Positions 1,453-63,677 of a stretch of 64,000 bases of DNA are shown in pieces. Positions within the stretch are counted from its first letter, which is position 1; each line of letters starts with the position of its first letter. The position numbers were made by a program, and so were the translations under genes. Below the pieces are notes generated by a model. That model saw only the letters and a list, made by a program, of their open reading frames with translations, was not told the DNA's origin and did not search any database. Origin of the DNA: a virus; the IMG/VR virus record IMGVR_UViG_3300020154_000003, positions 62,001 through 126,000 of that record; one strand, written 5' to 3'.

Positions 1453-2991
1453 ATGAGCGAAGAATTAGCACAACCACAAATAACACATGATTACGATCCT
1501 AGATCAACGGAGGAACAAGTAACAATATACAATTGGGTAGAATATGGTGAAGGTAATTTAGTAATCAGAGCACGGGCTGGTGCTGGTAAAACAACAACAT
1601 TGGTTGAAATCGCAAAGCTATTACCTGCTGATGCTTCAACCACATTTTTAGCATTCAACGTTCACATTAAGGATGAACTTAAGACCAAGCTTCCAAAAAA
1701 CGTATTTTGCTACACCACACACGGCTTAGGATACTCCGCTATCAAGCGAAAATATAAGGATGCTGAGGTTGATAATTTTAAGGCTGATAAGGTCATTGGT
1801 AAGCAAGCTAAAAAGTGGAATCTCGATGGAATCGACAATAAGCTTGATTACATGACCAACATGAAAAAATTGGTCAGCTTAATTCGATTGTCATTAACTC
1901 ATGATAAAAAGTATGTCCCGGACATTTGTGAACGCCATGATATAAAATTTGATGGTGAAGACATTAATCGTGCATTTCAAGTACTGGAAGAAATGTATAA
2001 CGATAAGAAAACCATTGACTATGTTGATATGGTTTACATGCCTTGTGTCGATCCTAAGATATGGTTATTCCCGCAAGATTATGTACTGGTTGATGAAGCA
2101 CAAGATTTATCTCGTGCTCAACATGAACTAATCAAGAAGTGCGTAAAGAAAAATAAGGCAGGTCAGTTTATCGGTAGAATGATTTATGTGGGTGATGACA
2201 TGCAAGCTATCTACGGATTTGCTGGTGCTGATTCTTACTCATTCAACAGTCTAACCAAGATACCTAACACAATAGTACTTCCTCTCACAACTAGTTTTAG
2301 GTGTGCTAAGAACGTTATTCTGGAAGCCAATAAATTGGTTGCAGACATTAAAGCTTTACCTGATGCACCCGATGGTATTGTACGTAAGGGTAGCGTACTT
2401 ATGGAAGTTAAGGATGGTGATTTTGTCTTGTCAAGAAAGACATTTCCGTTGGTAAAATTATTCTTTGAACTTCTCGTTGAAGATCGAAAGGCGTATATTA
2501 AAGGAAGTGATATTGGAGCATCATTAATCGAGTTTACTGAAAACCACAACACGCCCTCACAGTTGGATGCTTCGCTAACGAATAAATTGGCTGAATACCG
2601 AGAAAATTTAAGAGCACATGGAGTCCTTAATTATCAAGAAGATACTCGATACGTTGCTTTAAACGATAAAGTAAAAATATTGAGATTCCTAATGGGTATG
2701 GTCGATAATGTCGCGGCCTTAAAACAAAGAATCAACTATATCTTCAAAGAAACCAGTAATGAGGGTATTGTTCTGAGTACTGTCCATAAAGCAAAGGGTC
2801 TTGAGGCAGATAAAGTGTTTATTATCATGCCTAAAGATTTACCTTTAAGAACTGGAATACCTCAACAGTACGTACAGGAATTAAATTTGAAGTACATCGC
2901 AATTACACGGGCCAAGTATGAACTTGTCTTTGATGAAGATTGGACAGTTGATGACGGTACGTTTGAAGAATTTACATTAGATCACGAATAA
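1453..2991 (+). CDS. Superfamily 1 DNA helicase, UvrD/PcrA-like
   Basis: This 512-residue ATP-driven DNA helicase acts in phage replication or recombination. Walker A is RARAGAGKTTT near residue 40. Motif II is VLVDEAQDLS near residue 215, followed by YVGDDMQAIYGFAGA (motif III), TSFRC (motif IV), STVHKAKGLEADKV (motif V) and YIAITRAKYELV (motif VI) at the C-terminus. It is shorter than UvrD or PcrA (about 720) because the inserted 1B/2B domains are reduced, more like T4 Dda in size. Its 3' end overlaps the convergent membrane gene by 20 bases. Confidence 0.92.
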   Translation: MSEELAQPQITHDYDPRSTEEQVTIYNWVEYGEGNLVIRARAGAGKTTTLVEIAKLLPADASTTFLAFNVHIKDELKTKLPKNVFCYTTHGLGYSAIKRKYKDAEVDNFKADKVIGKQAKKWNLDGIDNKLDYMTNMKKLVSLIRLSLTHDKKYVPDICERHDIKFDGEDINRAFQVLEEMYNDKKTIDYVDMVYMPCVDPKIWLFPQDYVLVDEAQDLSRAQHELIKKCVKKNKAGQFIGRMIYVGDDMQAIYGFAGADSYSFNSLTKIPNTIVLPLTTSFRCAKNVILEANKLVADIKALPDAPDGIVRKGSVLMEVKDGDFVLSRKTFPLVKLFFELLVEDRKAYIKGSDIGASLIEFTENHNTPSQLDASLTNKLAEYRENLRAHGVLNYQEDTRYVALNDKVKILRFLMGMVDNVAALKQRINYIFKETSNEGIVLSTVHKAKGLEADKVFIIMPKDLPLRTGIPQQYVQELNLKYIAITRAKYELVFDEDWTVDDGTFEEFTLDHE

Positions 2992-3274
2992 TTCTATTCA
3001 AAGAATCTCGTTTCGCAGCACACTTATTCATTTCATTTTTATAATGAACAATAATACTATCCTGTGCCTTAATTGTTTCATTACTCACAATTAATGAATT
3101 CGTTAAGGCATCGTTTAGTTTTTTTACTTCTCTATACTGCTCGTCATTAGATTTTAAACTAACCTCAAGATTCGAACTATTGTTGAAAAACACTAACGAA
3201 CCGACACTCACAAGAAATACAATGATCGTTATGAACCCAATTATTCCAATATTATTGATTTTCCACTTCAACAT
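2972..3274 (-). CDS. Membrane-anchored coiled-coil protein, spanin-like
   Basis: This protein of about 100 residues has one N-terminal transmembrane helix (residues 8-28) followed by a long charged periplasmic coiled coil. That is the topology of an inner-membrane spanin or similar lysis accessory protein. I chose the ATG at 3274, which overlaps the upstream stop as TGATG, over the GTG one codon earlier. The two-gene membrane pair supports a lysis role but no spanin signature can be read, so this is inference. Confidence 0.5.
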   Translation of the reverse strand: MLKWKINNIGIIGFITIIVFLVSVGSLVFFNNSSNLEVSLKSNDEQYREVKKLNDALTNSLIVSNETIKAQDSIIVHYKNEMNKCAAKRDSLNRIIRDLM

Positions 3275-3561
3275 CACTTCGATATATTTAATTTAGTATA
3301 AATTTCTTGGATTTCAATTCTTAATTGCTCTTCAGATTTGATTCTTTCCTTAATGTCTTCGATTCTTTCCTTCTTCATTTGATTGATTTTAATCCATAAT
3401 TTAACAATGACTGCTGCCATAATTAAAATCACTAAGCAAAGAATCCCAAGTATTGCATTATTTTGTTTTAAACTATTAATAGCATGGTCAGTATTTACTG
3501 GATTTGCTTGAGTCAAGACGTAAGTGTAAAGAAATACTGAACTTAAGTATAATAGTTTCAT
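3274..3561 (-). CDS. Small secreted or membrane coiled-coil protein
   Basis: The 95-residue product has an N-terminal hydrophobic segment resembling a signal peptide (residues 1-18), a second hydrophobic helix (38-58) and a basic/acidic coiled coil to the end. It is translationally coupled to the next gene by a TGATG overlap. A late-type motif 17 bases upstream indicates late expression, consistent with lysis. No family is recognised. Confidence 0.5.
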   Translation of the reverse strand: MKLLYLSSVFLYTYVLTQANPVNTDHAINSLKQNNAILGILCLVILIMAAVIVKLWIKINQMKKERIEDIKERIKSEEQLRIEIQEIYTKLNISK

Positions 3562-3578
3562 GGTTTATCGTTTCACCT

Positions 3579-3586
3579 ATAAATAC
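3579..3586 (-). promoter_or_regulatory. Late-type promoter motif GTATTTAT
   Basis: Coding-strand AGTATTTATA lies 17 bases before the start of the coiled-coil membrane gene pair. Confidence 0.55.
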
Positions 3587-3620
3587 TTTTTTGCAGTTTG
3601 AAAAATTTTATCGAACAAAA

Positions 3621-3648
3621 AAAAGGGTAAGATTTCTCTTACCCTTTT
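3621..3648 (-). terminator. Intrinsic terminator after the capsid gene
   Basis: A 12-bp perfect hairpin (AAAAGGGTAAGA / TCTTACCCTTTT, loop TTTC) ends in a U run on the minus strand, 22 bases past the capsid stop. It can also act on the plus strand. Confidence 0.85.
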
Positions 3649-3669
3649 GTATTTTTTCTTACTCAATTA

Positions 3670-5340
3670 TTAGTTAAGTAAACCGATTCCGAATGTTTCC
3701 AAGCCATCGCACAACACTTTACCGAAGTAACGGTTGATGATGAACTTCTTAGCGTAACGGGTCATGATACCACGGATAGGCTTGAAGTCGAATGGATTAT
3801 ACATCACAGGAGTCAATTGCATAGGCACGTAAGGTGCGTAGATGTAACCAGACTCAAGGATTGATGAACCTTTGTGACCAACCAACAAAGTGTTAGCAGG
3901 AGCGTAAGGATCACGGAATACTTGGTATCTTCCTTGGAGTGAACCAATTTTCTCGATACCCATGTTATACTTATCCTGTTCAGGAGCAGCGTTAGATACG
4001 TGGAAGTACTCCAAGTTATCAAATACGGCACTGATTTCAGGAGATACTACAACCCAAGTTGCGCCACCTCTAAGAGTTGACTTATGGATTTGTGCAGAAA
4101 TCTGGTTGATCTTAGTGATCAAAGTTTGGTTCCAGTCTTTCTGAGTACCATGATAGGTGTTAGATTGCTTTCTCAAGCCATTGTAATCCCATCTTGTAAC
4201 CCAAGCTGCACCTCTTCTAAGGTCTCTAAGGATTTCACGGTCAACTTCAGCAGCCATCTGTTCTGACAACAATGCTGTCAATTCAGCTTCTGCATCAATG
4301 TTATGGAATGCACTTACGTCTTGCGCAAGTTCAGGAGTCCACTGTGCTCTCATCTTACGAGTCTCAACTGATACAGTTACTTCATCAAGACCGAAAGTTA
4401 CTTCAGCCATTTCTGAATCTTCTTCAAGATCAGAGTAAACTCTGTAAGAGTATACGAATCTAGTTGCACCACCAGTTGCAGCAGTAAGTGCTTGGTAACC
4501 GTTAGTACCTGCGTAAGTTAAGTCGATGATAACAACCAAGTTTCCAGAAGAATCAACGATTTGCTGACCATATTTCTGAACCTTTACGTTGAAAGGAATT
4601 GCAGCACCAGCAGCCAATGAAGCGTCTGAGTAACCTGCACCAGCGTTAAACGCCTTGTTTGAAGTGATTTGCAATGAAGCCAAGAAGCTTTCAGTGTCCA
4701 TAGGAACACCTTGAGGGCCAACAAGCTTACCTGCAGAAGTAGTTGAGAAACCACCGATTGTTGCAGTTACGTAAGTAGCACCAGTTGCATAAGCAGGAGA
4801 TACTGATGTGTTACCAGTTACGGTTACATATCTACCTTTGCTTCTATCGAACAATGATGAACCTTCGTTACCATATTCAGTTGCATAGAATGCATCGTAC
4901 AATGAAGTTGTTTCAAACTGAGTACCAGAGAAACCAGTAGCTGCAGCGTTTGAGTAAGCACCATCAGGTGAAGTGTGCTTCTGGTTAGGGCCAGCAGTTT
5001 GTCTAGTTGAAATCTTAGGGTTCATGTAGTACAACTTACCGATAGGCAAGTTCAATGCTTGAACTGATACGATTTCGTTAGCCAAAAGCTTTGCGAAAAC
5101 TCTTCTAATTACAGGGAATGCAACTGTTTCGAATGCACCGCTAGATGCTGAATCAGTAGATTCGTTGATCATATAAGACAACTGGTTCTCAAACAATTGA
5201 GCGCAGTTTTCTCTAATGTTACCTTCAAGACCTTTCAACAAACCGATTTTGTCCCATCTGTTTGTGATAAGTTCTCTTTGTTCACGAAGTTGTTTCAAAC
5301 CAATGTTACCAACTTCTTTACTTTCTGTTAAAAATCCCAT
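3670..5340 (-). CDS. gp23: Major capsid protein, T4 gp23-like
   Basis: The 556-residue product is the hexameric shell subunit of a T4-type head. The length fits gp23 (521). It starts MGFLTESKEVGNIG; a cleavable N-terminal segment of about 60-65 residues is expected for a gp21 substrate. The C-terminus holds the family's conserved segment GYIYAPYVPMQLTPV followed by RYAKKFIINRYFGKVL. Codon use is markedly optimised compared with its neighbours, as in highly expressed genes. It lies downstream of scaffold and protease and ends at a strong terminator. Confidence 0.93.
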   Translation of the reverse strand: MGFLTESKEVGNIGLKQLREQRELITNRWDKIGLLKGLEGNIRENCAQLFENQLSYMINESTDSASSGAFETVAFPVIRRVFAKLLANEIVSVQALNLPIGKLYYMNPKISTRQTAGPNQKHTSPDGAYSNAAATGFSGTQFETTSLYDAFYATEYGNEGSSLFDRSKGRYVTVTGNTSVSPAYATGATYVTATIGGFSTTSAGKLVGPQGVPMDTESFLASLQITSNKAFNAGAGYSDASLAAGAAIPFNVKVQKYGQQIVDSSGNLVVIIDLTYAGTNGYQALTAATGGATRFVYSYRVYSDLEEDSEMAEVTFGLDEVTVSVETRKMRAQWTPELAQDVSAFHNIDAEAELTALLSEQMAAEVDREILRDLRRGAAWVTRWDYNGLRKQSNTYHGTQKDWNQTLITKINQISAQIHKSTLRGGATWVVVSPEISAVFDNLEYFHVSNAAPEQDKYNMGIEKIGSLQGRYQVFRDPYAPANTLLVGHKGSSILESGYIYAPYVPMQLTPVMYNPFDFKPIRGIMTRYAKKFIINRYFGKVLCDGLETFGIGLLN

Positions 5341-7820: not shown

Positions 7821-10800
7821 ATGGCAGCATCGGATAACATTATAGACCCAAATGAAATTATAACCTCTGACTCGTTTAATAAATTGGGGCTTAACGGTAT
7901 GCCAGATCATTCCAAAATGTATTTGTTCGTAGAATTAACCGCAAAAAGAAGAGGTGGCAGTATTTTAGTGACTGATGGAGTGGGATCATCTTCAAAAAGA
8001 ATATTGAAAGATGAAAATGATGCAATAAGTATCAATATGATGGGGTTCGATCAGAACACTAAAAATTACACTACAAGATGGAGCAAGAATTCTGATAATA
8101 ATGAAACAAATTTTGAAGGTTTTGGGATCACGGAAATAAATATCAACACAACCAGTAGTTATGTTCCAGTGGTTGATATTGAATTCGTTGACATTAGAGG
8201 TTCATCTTTATTTACTTTCGGTTCAAAATCCCCGTATTCAGTACTATTCAGCTTTCCACCGCCAGTATTTACCTTAACTGTTAAGGGTTATTACGGTAAG
8301 GCTTTAACCTATAATTTACATCTGGTACGCCAATCAAGTAGATTCGATGCTGCGTCAGGAAATTATTACATATCAGCCAATTTTGTTGCTCAAAAGTTTG
8401 CACCATTAACGGATGTCCTTTTCAAGTATATTGACGTTGTGCCTTTGATTAATGACACTTCTGGAGGTTCTGGTTTAAATGGCGTTGATTTTGATTTTAG
8501 CCAACCACCCAAAAATACTAGAGAACTTATCGTAAGAGCACAAAAACTATATGACGATCTTGAGAAGTTTAAAGCCAATTCTCAATTGGCAAATGATGCA
8601 GATAAATTCAGATCGGATTTTAACACCTCCCAATCACTTCTCTCGACCATAAACAATTTCAAAGCAAAGCTTGATCTTAACCTTCAAAATTTGAGTGATC
8701 TATATGTCATGGAAGTACCTAAGGATAATCCAAATGATGGTGGTGGTAATTTAAATAATGTTATCACTGAAAGATTTACTCCAATCACTTTACAGGAGTA
8801 TAATAATTTAATTAGGGTAGAGTCCCCTAATTTTCAGTCATCAAATATCAGTAGTAGATTATATATTTCTACAAAATTTGCAAATGCAGATACAACAACT
8901 GTGACTGGAACTACTGCATCGATCACAAAAAGAATAAAAAGTAACTTGCTCCAGTTGAAATTAACTATGTTAGGTGAGGCAAGTAGAGTTAACGCGAACA
9001 TTAAACCTAAAAGTAACGACATCAGAGACCCAAAAGAATTTATGGGGTCTGACGATAGATATTTTGGTATTGATATTACTGATTACTACATCAAAATCTT
9101 TCAAGATATTGAAACTAAAAGAAATCAGTTTCAAGCAAAACAAACTGAATTTAAAGATAAGGTTAATGATATTTCAGTAAGTGCATTAGGTAAAACTCCG
9201 ACAATTAAATTTATATTCGACATCCTATGTAATGATGTTGATAAGTTTTTTAATAAGCTTAAGGACGTAGATTACCTTTCCGAAATACATCACCAAAAAT
9301 ACTTTAGTCAAATCGTAACAAATAACGAATCCAAGAAAAATAAAATATCGCCTTTTCCATTAATTAAAAAGAAAACTGTTATCTCGAATTTGAATGATAG
9401 TACAACAGGTAGCATTGAGCGTGAAGAACGTGCTTATCCTCAAGAAGTGTTTAAGGATATTGAAACATTCCCTGAAGTACAGTTTGTTGAAAGCTTTATC
9501 ACTACGTTTTTGGATATTATTAAAAGCGATGAAATTCTTGACCTTAAAGAAGGAACTGACGAACAAGGTAATAATAAGTGGATACCTATCAACCCATTGG
9601 ACTCAGTTGTTAATGGTCGAATTAGTGCAATAACCCCGTATTTCGGTAAACTAAATCCAATACCTGAATTAATTACTGAGTTATTAACTAGATATTATGT
9701 GGTGACGCAATTTAGTTATGGTGAATTATTTTATCATAAGGATGGAAATATTATTACTGAATTTTTCGGTGTTGAAAGCAAACAAAATGATCTCATCTCA
9801 TTTTTAGCTAAAGCTGAGGCTGCTAATATCATAAATTCTATTGTTGATAGTAATCTTCTCAATGGACTTTCTGCACAAGCGACTCAGTGGAAATCAAATA
9901 TTCAAACTTTCTACGATTCTCTTTCTAATAACGTATCAACCTATAATACGATTCCAACTCATGGAACTGCGGGAGTTACATATTTAGAATTGAATGGCCA
10001 ACCAATTGTAAAGGATCGAACAAATTTTCTATATAAAGGATTTGAATTGTTGACTGGCGGTAAGCCAGACTTAAGGAATCCTTCTGACGATGGTAGTAAT
10101 ACAGGTGAGTTGAATGTTGTGGATAAATTTTTGGACAGATTCGCGAATAGTAGAGTTAGAAACTTTTTATTTGAAAATTTTGAATTTGAAGACTTCACTA
10201 AACAAAACATCATTTATGTTAAGGATGAGGCAAGCAGCGATAGTGGCGGGAATGATAGTGATTTTATAAAAAATGGTACAGTTCTCGACTCTGATTTATT
10301 CAGTTTCAATAGAAACGTAGATAAAACTATTTCAAACATTTATGCAGCAACATTAAGTAAAGCTGATAGCACCTTATTAACTATATTGAACGATCCTGAT
10401 ATTACAAACACAGTCAAAACTATGGTGTTTGTGTCAATGTTCGGTAGAACTCTCTCTTATTTTGATAAGGCAGTAAATAAGAAATTTGCATTCCCATCAG
10501 TAATCGAGGCTCCGAAATTTGCACATTTATACATGGGAGGTTTGGCATATTTCTACAAAGACCCAACAACCTTAATTAATGATGAAATTGACACATACAA
10601 TAATAAGTATGCAAGTTTCTTGCGTTTTGATAAGAATCTTGAAAGTGCAATACAAGTACAAAACATATCATCAATCGATGCTGAGGAATTGAAAACATAC
10701 TTCGAATCTTTTGCATCAGACACCACCTCAACTGGCTACATAACATTTGAAAACAGTGTAATTGCGTTGATCGAGGAAGTTCAAGCCCTTGGAATTAGCG

Positions 10801-12122
10801 ATACTGACGATAAATTTGATGAATATTTTAGAAGATTGACGGATGATGAACTTGATTCAGATAAAAATGAAAACGACTATAGCTTTCTTATAAATAAATT
10901 GAATGAGCAGTTATATGTTTTGAATTATACTCAAACAACATTTTATCCAGACACTACCGTTGATCCAGAATTCACAGCCTTGTCTTTATTGAACTTAAAC
11001 GCATCGTTTAAGTCTACCAATGACAAATATTTCAAAGAATTCTTCACTGAAGTAATTAAACTCATTGAAGAAAGAAATAAAAAATTGAAGGAAATTGAAC
11101 AAAGATTCCAACAAAGTATTGAAGATAAAGATATTAAAACCCAATGCTACTATTCATTTAAATCAATATCAGATAAGTGGGTTTTAGGATATGGTAAGGA
11201 AGGTATTATGGGTAATACAACACCTCTCATTGATGATTTTATTTTTGTTGATAGAGCCTTCAATGATATTGGTGATAAAGTTGTTATAGATTTTAGGCCA
11301 ATCATCGAGATGTCAAAAGATTTCGATGTGAGCGTTTTTACTGTAATGTCAAGATTATTATCGCTAAATGGTTTTGAATTTTTTCCAGTACAGAATTTTA
11401 TGAATTTCAAACAAGGGCAGAATCAGTGGGAAGATGCATTTAAAATTTCCGACTCTGCAAAAGTCGATGTCAGCACCAGTCCTAAATTCATATGTATGTA
11501 CGTTGGTGGCGCATCATCCCAATTGGATGATCCTTATGGTGATTTCGATGATGATGGAGTACAGAATTTGTCTGAGTTACCGGACTTCAAAGAAGGAAAC
11601 GTCTTTGGATTTAAAGTTGCATTTGCTAAACAAAATCAATCGTTGTTCACTAATATTGAACTAAACACTAATGAACATAAAGAGACGAATGAAAGCTTGG
11701 CAATACTGTCTGAAATCGCACAAGATCAAAGCGCATCCTCACCAGTACCTAAGGGTCAGAACTTGTTTTCAACTTTTGAACAAAGAAGTTATACGTGTAA
11801 AGTCGAGATGTTGGGCGATATAATGATTCAACCAACTCAGTATTTTTTATTAGAAAACGTACCGATGTTCAAAGGAGCGTATTTAATCCTACAAGTACAG
11901 CACAACATTGTCCCTAATTTTATGAAGACTAGTTTTGAGGGAGTAAGAATTAGAAAGGTTCCTCAACCATTTGTTCAGGAATTTGCAACTGCGGTGGGGG
12001 TTAAAGGAGGTGCTTCCGATTCTACGTTGGTTGGTGAGAATGACGTAAACAATAACCTTAACAACATACCAACTATAAATCCTATTACAACTGATCAAAC
12101 ATCCAGATTGATCAGTCCTTAA
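7821..12122 (+). CDS. Large baseplate-hub-like structural protein
   Basis: The product is 1433 residues. I take the ATG at 7821 (MAASDNIIDP) over an in-frame TTG five codons earlier because it fits the upstream motif. The last 130 residues (CKVEMLGDIMIQPTQYF, then GAYLILQVQHNI and TSFEGVRIRKVP) resemble the end of tail hub proteins of the gp27/late-control-D type: a beta-barrel module that binds the spike or tube. The middle is mostly unrecognised, with helical stretches. The next gene is a wall hydrolase, as gp5 accompanies gp27 in T4. The hub role is an inference from the C-terminus and context. Confidence 0.65.
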   Translation: MAASDNIIDPNEIITSDSFNKLGLNGMPDHSKMYLFVELTAKRRGGSILVTDGVGSSSKRILKDENDAISINMMGFDQNTKNYTTRWSKNSDNNETNFEGFGITEININTTSSYVPVVDIEFVDIRGSSLFTFGSKSPYSVLFSFPPPVFTLTVKGYYGKALTYNLHLVRQSSRFDAASGNYYISANFVAQKFAPLTDVLFKYIDVVPLINDTSGGSGLNGVDFDFSQPPKNTRELIVRAQKLYDDLEKFKANSQLANDADKFRSDFNTSQSLLSTINNFKAKLDLNLQNLSDLYVMEVPKDNPNDGGGNLNNVITERFTPITLQEYNNLIRVESPNFQSSNISSRLYISTKFANADTTTVTGTTASITKRIKSNLLQLKLTMLGEASRVNANIKPKSNDIRDPKEFMGSDDRYFGIDITDYYIKIFQDIETKRNQFQAKQTEFKDKVNDISVSALGKTPTIKFIFDILCNDVDKFFNKLKDVDYLSEIHHQKYFSQIVTNNESKKNKISPFPLIKKKTVISNLNDSTTGSIEREERAYPQEVFKDIETFPEVQFVESFITTFLDIIKSDEILDLKEGTDEQGNNKWIPINPLDSVVNGRISAITPYFGKLNPIPELITELLTRYYVVTQFSYGELFYHKDGNIITEFFGVESKQNDLISFLAKAEAANIINSIVDSNLLNGLSAQATQWKSNIQTFYDSLSNNVSTYNTIPTHGTAGVTYLELNGQPIVKDRTNFLYKGFELLTGGKPDLRNPSDDGSNTGELNVVDKFLDRFANSRVRNFLFENFEFEDFTKQNIIYVKDEASSDSGGNDSDFIKNGTVLDSDLFSFNRNVDKTISNIYAATLSKADSTLLTILNDPDITNTVKTMVFVSMFGRTLSYFDKAVNKKFAFPSVIEAPKFAHLYMGGLAYFYKDPTTLINDEIDTYNNKYASFLRFDKNLESAIQVQNISSIDAEELKTYFESFASDTTSTGYITFENSVIALIEEVQALGISDTDDKFDEYFRRLTDDELDSDKNENDYSFLINKLNEQLYVLNYTQTTFYPDTTVDPEFTALSLLNLNASFKSTNDKYFKEFFTEVIKLIEERNKKLKEIEQRFQQSIEDKDIKTQCYYSFKSISDKWVLGYGKEGIMGNTTPLIDDFIFVDRAFNDIGDKVVIDFRPIIEMSKDFDVSVFTVMSRLLSLNGFEFFPVQNFMNFKQGQNQWEDAFKISDSAKVDVSTSPKFICMYVGGASSQLDDPYGDFDDDGVQNLSELPDFKEGNVFGFKVAFAKQNQSLFTNIELNTNEHKETNESLAILSEIAQDQSASSPVPKGQNLFSTFEQRSYTCKVEMLGDIMIQPTQYFLLENVPMFKGAYLILQVQHNIVPNFMKTSFEGVRIRKVPQPFVQEFATAVGVKGGASDSTLVGENDVNNNLNNIPTINPITTDQTSRLISP

Positions 12123-43390: not shown

Positions 43391-43419
43391 AAAAAGGGGT
43401 GAGTAATTAATACTCACCC
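43391..43419 (-). terminator. Terminator overlapping the end of pseT
   Basis: GGGTGAGTA/TACTCACCC, 9 bp, with a U tract on the minus strand; the stem includes the last codons of pseT. Confidence 0.85.
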
Positions 43420-44315
43420 TTGCTTACTTGGAACACTTTAAGTCCGTTTTCTCTCCACATGTTGACAACTGGTTGACGATCCTCCAGTACTGCCCGGACA
43501 GAATATTTCCCCTTCACATTTTCCACCCACAATTCTCTCTTTACGACAATATCCTTACGGAAATCATCCATCTTACGCATCAACAGCAGGTCATACTCAA
43601 CACCATATGTTCTTAGCGACAGTTCGGTGCCCTCACGGGATTCCTCACTTCTACCAGTACAGATGATGATCGTGTAACCAGCAGCTTTGTAACAAAGATA
43701 GGTTTCGTATACAACCTGATCAAGATCATCCCGATCAACTTTATGCCAATCGAAATAACCACGCTTACCGTTCGCGTGAAACAATGTGCCATCCAGATCA
43801 ATCATAACGGCTTTAGGAAGCGCAGGATCGAATTCTGGTTCTTTGTACACGTAAGTCTTTTTAGACTGGTTTTGCAAAGCAAAGCTGTCCATTAAGATCA
43901 TGTAGTCTTCGTACATTTTCTTGATAACTTCCTCACCGACTGGTCTTTCACGAACACTGTCCCTCTCAACTGCCTTCTCGAATGAGATGTCAAATACCAT
44001 GAATTCAACGTCCGCACGATATTCCACGTACTTGATCATATCCTCAATGTATCTGGATTTGACGTGAGTAGCGTCAAGCAGGATGTTAAGTCTTCTATCC
44101 AAAGCCACATCGATGGCGTTCAAAACCAATTGAGTAATCATATCCTCAATCTTTGGTTCGCAAAATCCTTGATCCTTCAACATATAGCGGAAGTCATCCC
44201 GGTTAATTCTCACATAATCAGGGTTTTTGCGGACATATTCCTTTGACCACGTTGATTTACCTGCTGCAGGGATTCCGATAAGGATTTTGACGATTTGATT
44301 CTTTTTCTGTGCCAT
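43407..44315 (-). CDS. pseT: Polynucleotide 5'-kinase/3'-phosphatase, T4 PseT (Pnkp)
   Basis: The 302-residue enzyme matches T4 Pnkp (301). The kinase half has P-loop GIPAAGKSTWS and the RINRDDFR and ERDSVRERPVG catalytic segments. The phosphatase half has the haloacid-dehalogenase motif VMIDLDGTLF near residue 168, IICTGRSE and LEDRQPVV. In T4 it heals tRNA ends cut by host anticodon nucleases before RNA ligase seals them, which fits this tRNA-rich genome. Confidence 0.95.
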   Translation of the reverse strand: MAQKKNQIVKILIGIPAAGKSTWSKEYVRKNPDYVRINRDDFRYMLKDQGFCEPKIEDMITQLVLNAIDVALDRRLNILLDATHVKSRYIEDMIKYVEYRADVEFMVFDISFEKAVERDSVRERPVGEEVIKKMYEDYMILMDSFALQNQSKKTYVYKEPEFDPALPKAVMIDLDGTLFHANGKRGYFDWHKVDRDDLDQVVYETYLCYKAAGYTIIICTGRSEESREGTELSLRTYGVEYDLLLMRKMDDFRKDIVVKRELWVENVKGKYSVRAVLEDRQPVVNMWRENGLKVFQVSKGEY

Positions 44316-48487: not shown

Positions 48488-48802
48488 ATGAATTATTTAG
48501 AAAAAGAAATAGCCCTTTTCAAAAGGAGAAAACAACTTTTGAACCAGCCAATATTGAAAGTTGTTGGGGAAGGTTGTCAAGCAATTAGCGAATTTCAATG
48601 GATTGGAAAAGTAATCGGTTTCGAAGAAGATAAGGAAAAGGGTTGGACTGTGGCAGTCATCAAAATTTTGAAACATAATCGTTCATACGGTGATGCCAGA
48701 GACGCTAAGGAGGATGAAATTTATACTTATCCAATAGCGAACAAGTATTACATGATCAATGACATTCAAAACGTTGATGGTGTATGGATACTTTACACAT
48801 AG
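48488..48802 (+). CDS. Hypothetical protein, 104 aa
   Basis: The start MNYLEKEIALFKRR is just past the previous stop. A helix then a beta-barrel-like domain. Ends with TAG, 10 bases before the ligase gene. Confidence 0.55.
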   Translation: MNYLEKEIALFKRRKQLLNQPILKVVGEGCQAISEFQWIGKVIGFEEDKEKGWTVAVIKILKHNRSYGDARDAKEDEIYTYPIANKYYMINDIQNVDGVWILYT

Positions 48803-48812
48803 AAATGCGGAT

Positions 48813-49874
48813 ATGTTACTAACTAGAGATCAATTCAGGGAAGGTGTCTTTAAAAGAGATAAATACAGATGTGTCGTGTGCTTTAATCCTGCAGTTGATG
48901 CTCACCATATCATTGAAAGAAAATTATGGGATGACGGTGGATACTATTTGGATAACGGGGTTTCTCTTTGTGAACGTTGTCACATGAAAGCAGAACAAAC
49001 GATTATTTCTTGCGATGAGTTAAGAAATTCTGTTGGTATCACAACTAATCATTTACCAGCAATATTGTTTGATCGATTGATGGATGACAACAGAATCACG
49101 AATATAGGAAAGGTAAGTTTCGATAAATGGGGTAACCTAATACTGGCAGACGGTAGCCGTAGACCGGGGCCAATGTTTAATACGGAACAGGTTCAAAAAA
49201 TCATAAAGCAAGCCAATTTATTACATCTGTTTGTGGAAGATAAATATGTAAAATATCCAAGGACGTATCACTTACCATACAGCGAAAAAGCCTCTGCAGA
49301 CGATAAAAGATTATCCAGTACTGAGCAATTCGCAGGTAAGGAAGTGGTAGCAACCATCAAACTTGATGGGGAAAACACCACTTTGTATCAAGATCATATC
49401 CATGCAAGGTCTTTGGATTCAGCACATCATCCCTCTCGCGATTGGGTTAAAGGTTTGTGGGGAAGTTTCAAACATGAAATACCTGACGGTTGGAGAATTT
49501 GTGGTGAGAATGTTTACGCACTGCACACAATACCCTACAACAACTTAGAAACATACTTCTACGTTTTTTCCATATGGGATAATACGAATACCTGCCTTTC
49601 GTGGGATGAAACGGTTGCATACTGTGAAATGCTCGGACTAAAAACAGTACCCGTAATTTATCGTGGTGATTTTGATCAAGCGAAAATACAAGCTGCTTTT
49701 CCTGCAACACACAATGGTGATCCCACTGAAGGATATGTGGTTAGACTGACCGAACGTTTTCATTACGATGAGTTTGAAAATTCGTTAGCTAAATATGTGT
49801 CAAAGTCCTTCATTATCGAAGGCGCACAACATTGGATGCAGAATGCAATAATACCAAACAAGCTTTCTTCTTAA
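48813..49874 (+). CDS. HNH nuclease fused to RNA ligase, 353 aa
   Basis: Residues 1-75 are an HNH domain: CVVCFNPAVDAHHIIERKLW then SLCERCHMKAEQ. From about 140 a nucleotidyltransferase RNA ligase follows: adenylated-Lys motif ATIKLDGENTTLY, ARSLDS, WRICGENVYA (motif III-like), EGYVVRL (motif IV) and LAKYVSKS (motif V). It probably seals broken RNA after Pnkp healing. Both halves are intact; the ATG at 48813 avoids overlap. Confidence 0.88.
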   Translation: MLLTRDQFREGVFKRDKYRCVVCFNPAVDAHHIIERKLWDDGGYYLDNGVSLCERCHMKAEQTIISCDELRNSVGITTNHLPAILFDRLMDDNRITNIGKVSFDKWGNLILADGSRRPGPMFNTEQVQKIIKQANLLHLFVEDKYVKYPRTYHLPYSEKASADDKRLSSTEQFAGKEVVATIKLDGENTTLYQDHIHARSLDSAHHPSRDWVKGLWGSFKHEIPDGWRICGENVYALHTIPYNNLETYFYVFSIWDNTNTCLSWDETVAYCEMLGLKTVPVIYRGDFDQAKIQAAFPATHNGDPTEGYVVRLTERFHYDEFENSLAKYVSKSFIIEGAQHWMQNAIIPNKLSS

Positions 49875-51638: not shown

Positions 51639-51646
51639 ATGTCTAT

Positions 51647-51740
51647 ACATCGGCATTCATTGGTGAGATAAGCAGTCTCCAAAACTGTGCGAAAGGAGTA
51701 ATTACTGAGTAGCTTGTGGGTTCGAATCCCACCCTTTGTG
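51647..51740 (+). tRNA. Degenerate tRNA-Trp(CCA) with a long variable arm
   Basis: Loop CTCCAAA on GCAGT/ACTGT and a perfect T-arm, but acceptor ACATCGG/CCTTTGT has only 5 of 7 pairs, the D-stem is poor and the variable region is 27 bases. A normal Trp tRNA is at 57149. It may be decaying. Confidence 0.45.
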
Positions 51741-58967: not shown

Positions 58968-59040
58968 GCGAAGGTAGTTTAACTGGATAAAGCAGCCCCC
59001 TCCGAAGGGGTAGATGTAGGTTCGACTCCTGCCCTTCGCA
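58968..59040 (+). tRNA. tRNA-Arg(CCG)
   Basis: Loop CTCCGAA on GCCCC/GGGGT; acceptor GCGAAGG/CCTTCGC. Confidence 0.88.
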
Positions 59041-59045
59041 CAAAG

Positions 59046-59184
59046 TAAGCGAAAGGTTGTGGGTTGGATTCCCATCATCCGCATCGAAATAGAGATAAAC
59101 CGAATCTGAAAATTCGGTCGTCAGCTATCAGGTAGTCAGGAAGTACAACTGTAGGATGTAACTCAATGTCAGAGTAGTCGCTTA
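59046..59184 (+). ncRNA. Candidate circularly permuted tRNA gene
   Basis: A 3' tRNA half (59046-59083: TAAGCG, variable AGGTT, T-arm GTGGG-TTGGATT-CCCAT, acceptor CATCCGC, A) lies upstream of a 5' half (59152-59184: TAGGATG, TA, D-stem ACTC/GAGT, then GTCGCTTA). The halves pair: GGATG/CATCC in the acceptor and TCGCTTA/TAAGCGA at the anticodon stem. Between them lies a 68-base linker with hairpin ACCGAAT/ATTCGGT. Confidence 0.4.
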
Positions 59185-59191
59185 TTTATTT

Positions 59192-59266
59192 GCCTTAGTG
59201 GTGTCTCAACGGCTAACACACGCCCTTGGTAAGGGCGAGATTCGAGTTCGATTCTCGACTAAGGCT
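59192..59266 (+). tRNA. tRNA-Thr(GGT)
   Basis: Loop TTGGTAA on CGCCC/GGGCG; acceptor GCCTTAG/CTAAGGC. Confidence 0.9.
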
Positions 59267-59270
59267 CACA

Positions 59271-61539: not shown

Positions 61540-61612
61540 GTCTTAGTAGCACAATTGGCGGTGCAACGATCTCTAAAATCGGAGGATGCGGGTTCGATCC
61601 CCGCCTAAGGCA
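61540..61612 (+). tRNA. Amber suppressor tRNA(CTA)
   Basis: Acceptor GTCTTAG/CTAAGGC, T-arm GCGGG/CCCGC and D-arm are normal. The loop is CTCTAAA, giving anticodon CUA, which reads UAG. Its anticodon arm CGATCTCTAAAATCG differs from that of tRNA-Trp (57149) by one base, so it may descend from Trp. The discriminator is A, so the charged amino acid is not certain (Gln, Trp or other). Confidence 0.9.
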
Positions 61613-61613
61613 C

Positions 61614-61894: not shown

Positions 61895-62674
61895 ATGAAA
61901 GCAAAAAAAACTAAGAAAACTGCTAAAACCAGCACAAAAAGACCCGCCAAGAAGAAGCCTACCGCAAAAGCAAAAGCCTCATCAAAGACCAAAGCGAAAG
62001 CTAAGGTTAAATCCAAATTGGATTATACACACATAATCGCAGTACTGGACAAATCCAGTTCTATGCATTCAGTAGCGAATGCTGCCATGAAAGGTTTTAA
62101 TGAATTCCTGACATCACAAAAAGCCTTAAAAGGGAAAGCCACTATGGACGTGTTATTGTTCAGTAGTGCTGATAAAATCGACTATATCTCGCAGGGTGTT
62201 GACATCAGTGAGGTTGCTGAATTAACCTCTGAGACTTATCGTCCTCAGGGCACTACAGCATTATTCGATGCAATCGTGAAAGCCACTTCAACTTACAAAC
62301 TGAAGTATGATGAATTGAAGCCTTCAAAGAGACCCGATAAGATTTTGGTAATTGCTATTACTGATGGAGAAGAAAATAGCAGCACAGAATTTCCTATAAG
62401 TAAAGTTGGTGATGTCAAAGCATTGATCACAAAACGTAAGTCGGAAAACTGGCAGTTTATGTTCTTGTGCTCGACTGAAGATGCCGTGTTAACTGGCGAA
62501 TCTCTTGGAGTTTCAAGAGGTAACACAATGCAGTTTACCAATAGCGATCTTGGTAATCAAGCCATGTACTCTGCTGTGGCATCTGCTGCGACCATGTACA
62601 GATCGACTTCACTGAGAAGTAAGAGTTTTAGCAAGGTCAGCGATAATTTGCTGGCTGAGGATGATATTTCCTAA
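61895..62674 (+). CDS. VWA-domain protein with histone H1-like tail, 259 aa
   Basis: Residues 1-42 are almost only Lys, Ala, Thr, Pro and Ser (KKTAKTSTKRPAKKK...), like H1 or Hc1 tails that bind DNA. Residues 44-235 are a von Willebrand A domain with a MIDAS: AVLDKSSSMH, QGTTALFD and AITDGEENS. A DNA-bound, metal-dependent adaptor is suggested. Ends at a strong terminator. Confidence 0.82.
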   Translation: MKAKKTKKTAKTSTKRPAKKKPTAKAKASSKTKAKAKVKSKLDYTHIIAVLDKSSSMHSVANAAMKGFNEFLTSQKALKGKATMDVLLFSSADKIDYISQGVDISEVAELTSETYRPQGTTALFDAIVKATSTYKLKYDELKPSKRPDKILVIAITDGEENSSTEFPISKVGDVKALITKRKSENWQFMFLCSTEDAVLTGESLGVSRGNTMQFTNSDLGNQAMYSAVASAATMYRSTSLRSKSFSKVSDNLLAEDDIS

Positions 62675-63022: not shown

Positions 63023-63403
63023 ATGAAAAAAGAACTGTAGATTTCCAATCCTAGCGATCTTAAACTGGTAACCATTACCAGACAAGACCTACCAATGGGC
63101 GCAATCATTGCCCAAACAGTACATTCAACAGCATCATTTGCCATCCAGTACCCTGACAAATTTCGTCATTGGGAACAAACATCAAACTACGTAGCGTGTC
63201 TAGCTGCAAAGGATGAGCAAGAACTACTCAAGTATTACGACCGATTAATAAAGGCAGGAGCCGATGTGGTATTATTCCGTGAACCCGACATGGATAACCA
63301 AGCAACATCCCTATGCTTTTACGGCACTCCTGAGTTTCGGAAAATTACAAGCAGTTTACCATTAATGTTCAAGCAGAAGAAGGAGGTGGCTATGGCAGCA
63401 TAA
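63023..63403 (+). CDS. Peptidyl-tRNA hydrolase PTH2-type, with in-frame TAG at codon 6
   Basis: Reading from the ATG at 63023 gives MKKEL, TAG (63038-63040), then ISNPSDLKLVTITRQDLPMG and IIAQTVHSTASFAI, the PTH2 pattern with a strand, DLxMG and the QxxH helix. The core strand LVTITRQDLP lies before the internal ATG at 63095, so a start there would delete part of the fold. PTH2 frees tRNA from stalled peptides. Its own promoter precedes the first ATG. The TAG is probably read by the phage suppressor tRNA. Confidence 0.75.
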
Positions 63404-63585: not shown

Positions 63586-63658
63586 GAGAGTATGGCTCAG
63601 TGGTTAGAGCAAGGACTTCTAAACTCCTAGGTCGTGGGTTCGAATCCCACTACTCTCT
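63586..63658 (+). tRNA. Probable second amber suppressor tRNA(CTA)
   Basis: Standard numbering from the D-arm and the 5-base variable loop AGGTC puts CTA at 34-36: stem AGGAC/CTCCT, loop TTCTAAA, with a C-C mismatch at 31-39. If the closing pair is ignored, CTTCTAA could be read as Arg(TCT), so this one is less certain. Acceptor GAGAGTA/TACTCTC. Confidence 0.65.
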
Positions 63659-63677
63659 CTCAATAAAATAAAAAGTT

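Follow-up and report, generated by a model that had tools for sequence, protein, structure and literature searches.

A conserved permuted cloverleaf in a phage tRNA array is probably a tRNA-mimic RNA with Y-RNA-like architecture

Two ordinary tRNA genes of a phage are separated by a gap that is exactly filled (59043 to 59187) by the two halves of a tRNA-like sequence in swapped order, which raises the question of whether a working tRNA is made from this locus or whether the swapped form is itself the product. An earlier note had taken the locus to be a circularly permuted tRNA gene. The window, by which we mean the whole 64,000-nucleotide stretch that was analysed, belongs to a record of 366 kb and carries 52 tRNA calls by ARAGORN; the phage is a T4-like jumbo phage with a Gp23 capsid, a T4-type portal and an S77 protease. 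Elsewhere in the window, a degenerate class-II-like tRNA missed by ARAGORN lies just before tRNA-Asn(gtt) (51646-51740; weak Rfam tRNA-Sec match, 27.1 bits), and a possible peptidyl-tRNA hydrolase 2 is encoded within the tRNA region (63095-63403; Pfam PTH2, 23.6 bits against a cut-off of 23).

The sequence and the fold show that in the element a 3' tRNA half comes first and is separated by a 69-nt insert from the 5' tRNA half, and all the pieces named in the earlier note were located on the sequence map. They are arranged as the anticodon-stem 3' strand, the variable AGGTT, the T arm, the acceptor 3' strand, the insert, the acceptor 5' strand, TA, the D arm and the anticodon-stem 5' strand (Table 1). 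The acceptor match GGATG/CATCC is present as the five inner pairs, which alone form in the window copy, and the anticodon-stem pairing proved to be longer than had been claimed, since the MFE fold extends it to a continuous basal helix of 10 bp. The G at position 56 of the T loop and the absence of GG from the D loop were likewise borne out. Given that the tRNA-Arg(ccg) ends at 59041 and the tRNA-Thr(ggt) starts at 59192, the element is not part of a neighbouring tRNA.

Table 1. Positions in the window of the permuted element, its parts, its neighbours and the two RNA repair genes.
Feature	Position	Strand	Basis
Whole permuted tRNA-like RNA element	59043..59187	+	R2 model trained without the window copy; covariation
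Basal helix 5' strand (anticodon-stem 3' strand and extension through anticodon-loop positions)	59043..59052	+	MFE fold; covariation
Variable-region equivalent AGGTT	59054..59058	+	Sequence; model alignment
T-arm equivalent, loop TTGGATT, G at position 56	59059..59075	+	Paired in all four copies
Acceptor 3' strand, only CATCC pairs	59076..59082	+	Pair counts over four copies
69-nt insert closing the acceptor stem, hairpin CCGAAT/ATTCGG	59083..59151	+	Fold
Acceptor 5' strand, only GGATG pairs	59152..59158	+	Pair counts over four copies
D-arm equivalent, loop AATGTCA, without GG	59161..59175	+	Loop AAYGTCA common to all four copies
Anticodon-stem 5' strand	from 59177	+	Sequence map
Basal helix 3' strand	59178..59187	+	Fold; covariation
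Flanking tRNA-Arg(ccg), abuts element	58968..59041	+	ARAGORN; Rfam tRNA 61.6 bits
Flanking tRNA-Thr(ggt), abuts element	59192..59267	+	ARAGORN; Rfam tRNA 33.6 bits
Polynucleotide kinase-phosphatase (Pnkp)	43407..44315	-	Pfam HAD_PNKP, E 4.5e-41
HNH-RNA ligase fusion	48759..49874	+	Pfam RNA_ligase, E 2.5e-34; HNH, E 4.9e-5

The same arrangement was found three more times in two other phages, which brings the total to four copies in three phages. Two are in L001, the phage with the closest neighbouring protein (60% identity), where copy a (L001a, about 10452-10638) and copy b (L001b, 10719-10812) flank a cta-anticodon tRNA on either side, between Ser(gga) and Thr(ggt). They are syntenic with the window element, the order Ser(gga), element, Thr(ggt)-Leu(aag)-Leu(tag)-Cys(gca) being common to both phages. 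The earlier note had reasoned that an ordinary tRNA at this site in relatives would mark the element as rearranged debris; what L001 has there is two permuted copies. The remaining copy turned up when the unusual D loop was used as a search pattern, and lies directly before a tRNA-Cys in L059 (6639-6804). The insert measures 69 nt in the window, 107 nt in L001a, 90 nt in L059 and 19 nt in L001b. In all four copies the D loop is AAYGTCA instead of AATGGTA and the T loop has TTRG instead of TTCG; should the contact between positions 19 and 56 persist, U19 would face G or A in every copy. Directly beside the L001 copies are two tRNAs (10814-10910 and 10379-10451) that are seen by Rfam and missed by ARAGORN, the former having about 25 extra bases around its anticodon arm.

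No further copies were obtained from scans of IMG/VR with exact patterns for the 3' half or with gapped patterns, the matches being tRNAs, other genes and the known copies, and a DNA similarity search against named phages matched only ordinary tRNAs. A model built from all four elements (R1) returned only tRNA-tRNA junctions from 47 records of close capsid relatives; R1 loses copies with long inserts (the L059 copy surfaced in its own phage only as a 26-bit fragment), so that absence among these relatives is weak evidence. The family therefore appears to be rare or patchy within what was searchable here. An R1 match at L001 10555-10636 was rejected as a misaligned fragment of copy a. In L377 (2361-2437 and 2672-2748, minus strand) and L382 (2097-2181), R1 gave 34-38 bits to further RNAs whose loops are ordinary; they are likely permuted tRNA-like RNAs or Y RNAs but could be tRNA junctions.

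Rearranged debris is ruled out for the element, because 14 of its 27 pairs change on both sides over the four copies, with 89% of cells paired. The covariation score was 0.617, compared with at most 0.19 for slid partners. Changes on both sides affect 8 of the 11 basal-helix pairs, and the extension of this helix beyond the anticodon stem covaries as well (column 4 reads AU/CG/GU/UA, and column 5 goes from AU to GC). All cells of the T arm are paired in the four copies, and three of its five pairs change on both sides, whereas the acceptor pairs 1-72 and 2-71 are formed in one copy and broken in the other three. In the alignments (A3 and A4) the insert was trimmed to 12 nt and one N was added in two rows for register. 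A covariance model built from the three other copies, with the window copy left out (R2), gave the window copy 62.9 bits (E 2.9e-14), double the score of its second match in the window, a junction of two tRNAs at 31.4 bits. When 0.95 Mb was scanned with a descriptor, the four copies ranked at the top with scores of 21-22.5, above the maximum of 20.0 in shuffled DNA; a tandem tRNA pair in L063, a known confounder, also reached 21.0. The RNAfold z values were modest (-2.5 for the window copy, and -1.2, -1.7 and -1.5 as other values across copies), and the case is therefore carried by covariation and not by energy. What is conserved is a permuted cloverleaf composed of a 10-bp terminal helix, a T arm, a short acceptor-like stem with an insert replacing the free CCA end, and a D arm.

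The permuted order described in the earlier note is thus real and conserved, but its further proposal, a tRNA gene matured by circular closure, is not supported. In that scheme the RNA ligase and Pnkp of the phage would seal the two ends together, RNase P and RNase Z would excise the insert, and a decoding tRNA would result. In its favour, the 3' half lies upstream of the 5' half of one tRNA with 69 nt between them, a length inside the span of 1-74 seen in known permuted genes (PMC3978253), and Pfam confirms that both Pnkp and an RNA ligase are encoded in the window. Moreover, when an anticodon loop was supplied by hand, ARAGORN accepted L001a and L001b as tRNAs with any anticodon and L059 with one, indicating that the element body is clearly tRNA-derived; the window copy, however, was accepted with none. 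The positions that would make the anticodon loop (32-38) form instead a covarying helix, which runs for 8-11 bp without a loop. The anticodon read from the 3' half differs in every copy (AGU, AAC, CUG and UAA), and L059 has C at position 33, so that neither a functional anticodon loop with U33 nor one anticodon shared by the relatives was seen. In known permuted tRNA genes the junction forms a bulge-helix-bulge, and processing by a splicing endonuclease proceeds via a circle (PMC3978253), whereas the fold of the element has no bulge-helix-bulge there and shows the continuous basal helix. A seven-pair acceptor stem is also missing, the outer pairs being lost in three copies. The element is probably not a tRNA precursor, and maturation into a decoding tRNA is quite unlikely. 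It is highly doubtful that this is the first circularly permuted tRNA gene of the virus or bacterial world, with a transcript that the ligase and Pnkp close and an insert whose excision leaves a functional tRNA, perhaps of amber-decoding ancestry. These two phage enzymes fit general tRNA repair (PMC7824862) and need not act on the element. The ligase has an N-terminal HNH endonuclease domain, and HNH-RNA ligase fusions have been mentioned in jumbo phages (PMC7824862).

A relic of tandem tRNA duplication, in which two adjacent copies lost their outer halves and kept the 3' half of the first and the 5' half of the second, could give the same order. Tandem tRNAs do imitate the pattern, as in L063 and in many model matches of 20-34 bits, and the L001 cta tRNA is the closest match to the halves of both the window copy and L001a. 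Conservation in three phages, compensatory changes in every helix and the shared odd loops nevertheless show selection after such an event, and we regard a mere relic as very improbable. The origin is a separate matter, since only debris is refuted and a tandem duplication may still lie at the start. Ordinary cta tRNAs from other phages (L057 and L060) have the D loop AAYGTCA as well; together with the resemblance of the halves to the L001 cta tRNA, this makes a duplicated amber-type tRNA gene a plausible source of the element. Likely amber-decoding tRNAs with a cta anticodon, called Pyl by ARAGORN, are present in the window (61540-61613 and 63586-63659) and in L001 (10648-10720). The order of acceptor piece, spacer and 5' piece is identical in permuted two-piece tmRNA, whose spacer is transcribed. 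A shortened RNA of this type without the message is extremely improbable, however: neither ARAGORN nor Rfam called a tmRNA at the element, and a tag reading frame with pseudoknots would not fit into so short an insert. A tmRNA identity was rejected on the grounds that no tag message was seen and no tmRNA model matched.

Y RNAs of the YrlA type are not tRNA precursors; they bind Ro60 and PNPase and are modified by DusA/TruB. YrlA RNAs are 90-150 nt long with paired ends and a tRNA-like domain, and are regarded as tRNA mimics (PMC8394870); YrlA has been suggested to act as a competitive inhibitor of anticodon nuclease (PMC7790460). The topology of the element, permuted and tRNA-like with paired termini, is identical to that of RF02553, and one could envisage that it belongs to the YrlA family proper as a divergent member and cooperates with a host Ro60/PNPase system. 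TROVE and Y RNAs are present in phages of the same broad group, and jumbo phages with a TROVE protein have been described (PMC7824862). L001b matched the Rfam YrlA model with nearly all pairs formed, but at 20.3 bits (E 0.025) it fell far from the gathering threshold of 69 bits, and the window element gave no match up to E 10. No TROVE/Ro60 was found in the 366-kb record, which is linear and maybe incomplete, by a PF05731 search or with a phage TROVE HMM on six-frame ORFs, and TROVE, DUF2828 and DUF7788 proteins were all missing from the window phage and L001. A vWA-domain protein (61895-62674) is encoded 2.7 kb downstream of the element and is 61% conserved in L001; it was rejected as a Ro remnant (hhalign probability 0.2%).

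In a search of 50 phage records, R1 also matched free-standing RNAs that do not overlap tRNAs and score 28-45 bits with Rfam YrlA. Four of these Y RNAs are located 0.8-1.5 kb from a TROVE gene in jumbo-phage records (L201, L202, L204 and L215); TROVE-adjacent YrlA-like RNAs also carry the labels L242, L243, L244 and L245 (records G036, G039, G043 and G029). Since R1 also matches tRNA-tRNA junctions, its Y RNA matches reflect a common layout and are no proof of common descent. The phage Y RNAs covary strongly among themselves, and a model built from them (R3) missed the window element with filters on or off and preferred tRNA junctions; common descent of the element with YrlA is therefore unsupported. 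Six aligned phage Y RNAs all keep C56, and all but one keep GG, both of which the element has lost. Taken together, membership in the YrlA family proper is rather unlikely. Some YrlA-like RNAs lie in other surroundings: one (L237, 5448-5514), in a phage without TROVE, has a DUF2828-DUF7788 protein (2901-4307, minus strand) at a distance of 1.1 kb; this protein carries a vWA-like motif and may be a second kind of Ro-like partner, although hhalign linked it to TROVE by the vWA start motif alone. In L239 (5641-5735) and L241 (5825-5908) a YrlA-like RNA occupies matching positions within a shared gene order, next to proteins of about 240, 377 and 604 aa and with no TROVE gene beside it.

We conclude that the element is probably a non-coding tRNA-mimic RNA with a Y-RNA-like permuted cloverleaf, Ro-less, that would act as a scaffold or decoy and is not joined up to make a functional tRNA. 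The presence of four copies in three phages, two of these syntenic, the strong covariation, the independent R2 model, the YrlA-like order of elements with its L001b match and the Y RNAs retrieved by R1 argue for a tRNA mimic; the lack of TROVE/Ro60 in the record, the failure of R3, the acceptance by ARAGORN of hand-closed L001a and L001b and the total of only four known copies argue against it. We propose that the element would be transcribed together with the tRNA array, its ends being set by processing of the flanking tRNAs. The RNA would stay a single linear molecule, since with the terminal helix in place there is no anticodon loop to be closed, and its acceptor end would be a poor site for RNase P and RNase Z because the outer acceptor pairs are broken. 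The predicted product is a stable L-shaped tRNA-like body that could be neither charged nor used in decoding, with both functional ends blocked by a helix in place of the anticodon loop and an insert in place of the CCA. Such a body may offer a scaffold or a decoy to a protein with affinity for the tRNA body. The likeliest targets, and the least certain step of the proposal, would be a host tRNA-acting enzyme or defence nuclease, or a host complex of the Ro60/PNPase type.

Phages defend translation with tRNAs (for example PMC10264068). On the reading proposed here, the element adds a class of phage RNAs with a tRNA body in swapped order that are not tRNAs, have no Ro60 partner and reside in the tRNA arrays of giant phages. 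Should it act as a decoy that draws off tRNA-cutting defences or host RNA-decay enzymes, it would be an RNA-based counter-measure. The Y-RNA architecture also offers a ready alternative reading of permuted tRNA signals in bacterial or phage DNA, and ordinary tandem tRNAs can imitate the signals of both permuted tRNAs and Y RNAs.

Several known systems share the layout of the element. Like permuted two-piece tmRNA, it has an acceptor part ahead of a 5' part with a spacer between them, but it contains no message, tag or recognised pseudoknots, and its body helix ends the RNA. The permuted tRNA genes of red and green algae and of Thermofilum pendens also have a 3' half, an intervening sequence and a 5' half, and are split at the anticodon end; unlike these, the element has no bulge-helix-bulge, anticodon loop or conserved anticodon, its outer acceptor pairs are broken, and it is found in a phage. 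The TROVE-linked Y RNAs of jumbo phages have the same permuted cloverleaf and were retrieved by R1, yet differ in their short acceptor loops, their ordinary T and D loops and their nearby TROVE gene. The resemblance to YrlA (RF02553) extends to the basal stem of paired ends, the variable GUU, the T arm, the acceptor-like stem closed by a loop, the UA, the D arm and the return to the basal stem, as well as to a size in the 90-150 nt range (PMC8394870). Unlike YrlA, the element has an acceptor insert of 69-107 nt in three of the four copies, a T loop without C56 and a D loop without GG, and it sits inside a tRNA array in a phage without a Ro60/TROVE gene, with a score far below the Rfam cut-off. 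By analogy, then, the element may work like a Y RNA, and we do not file it as a member of YrlA.
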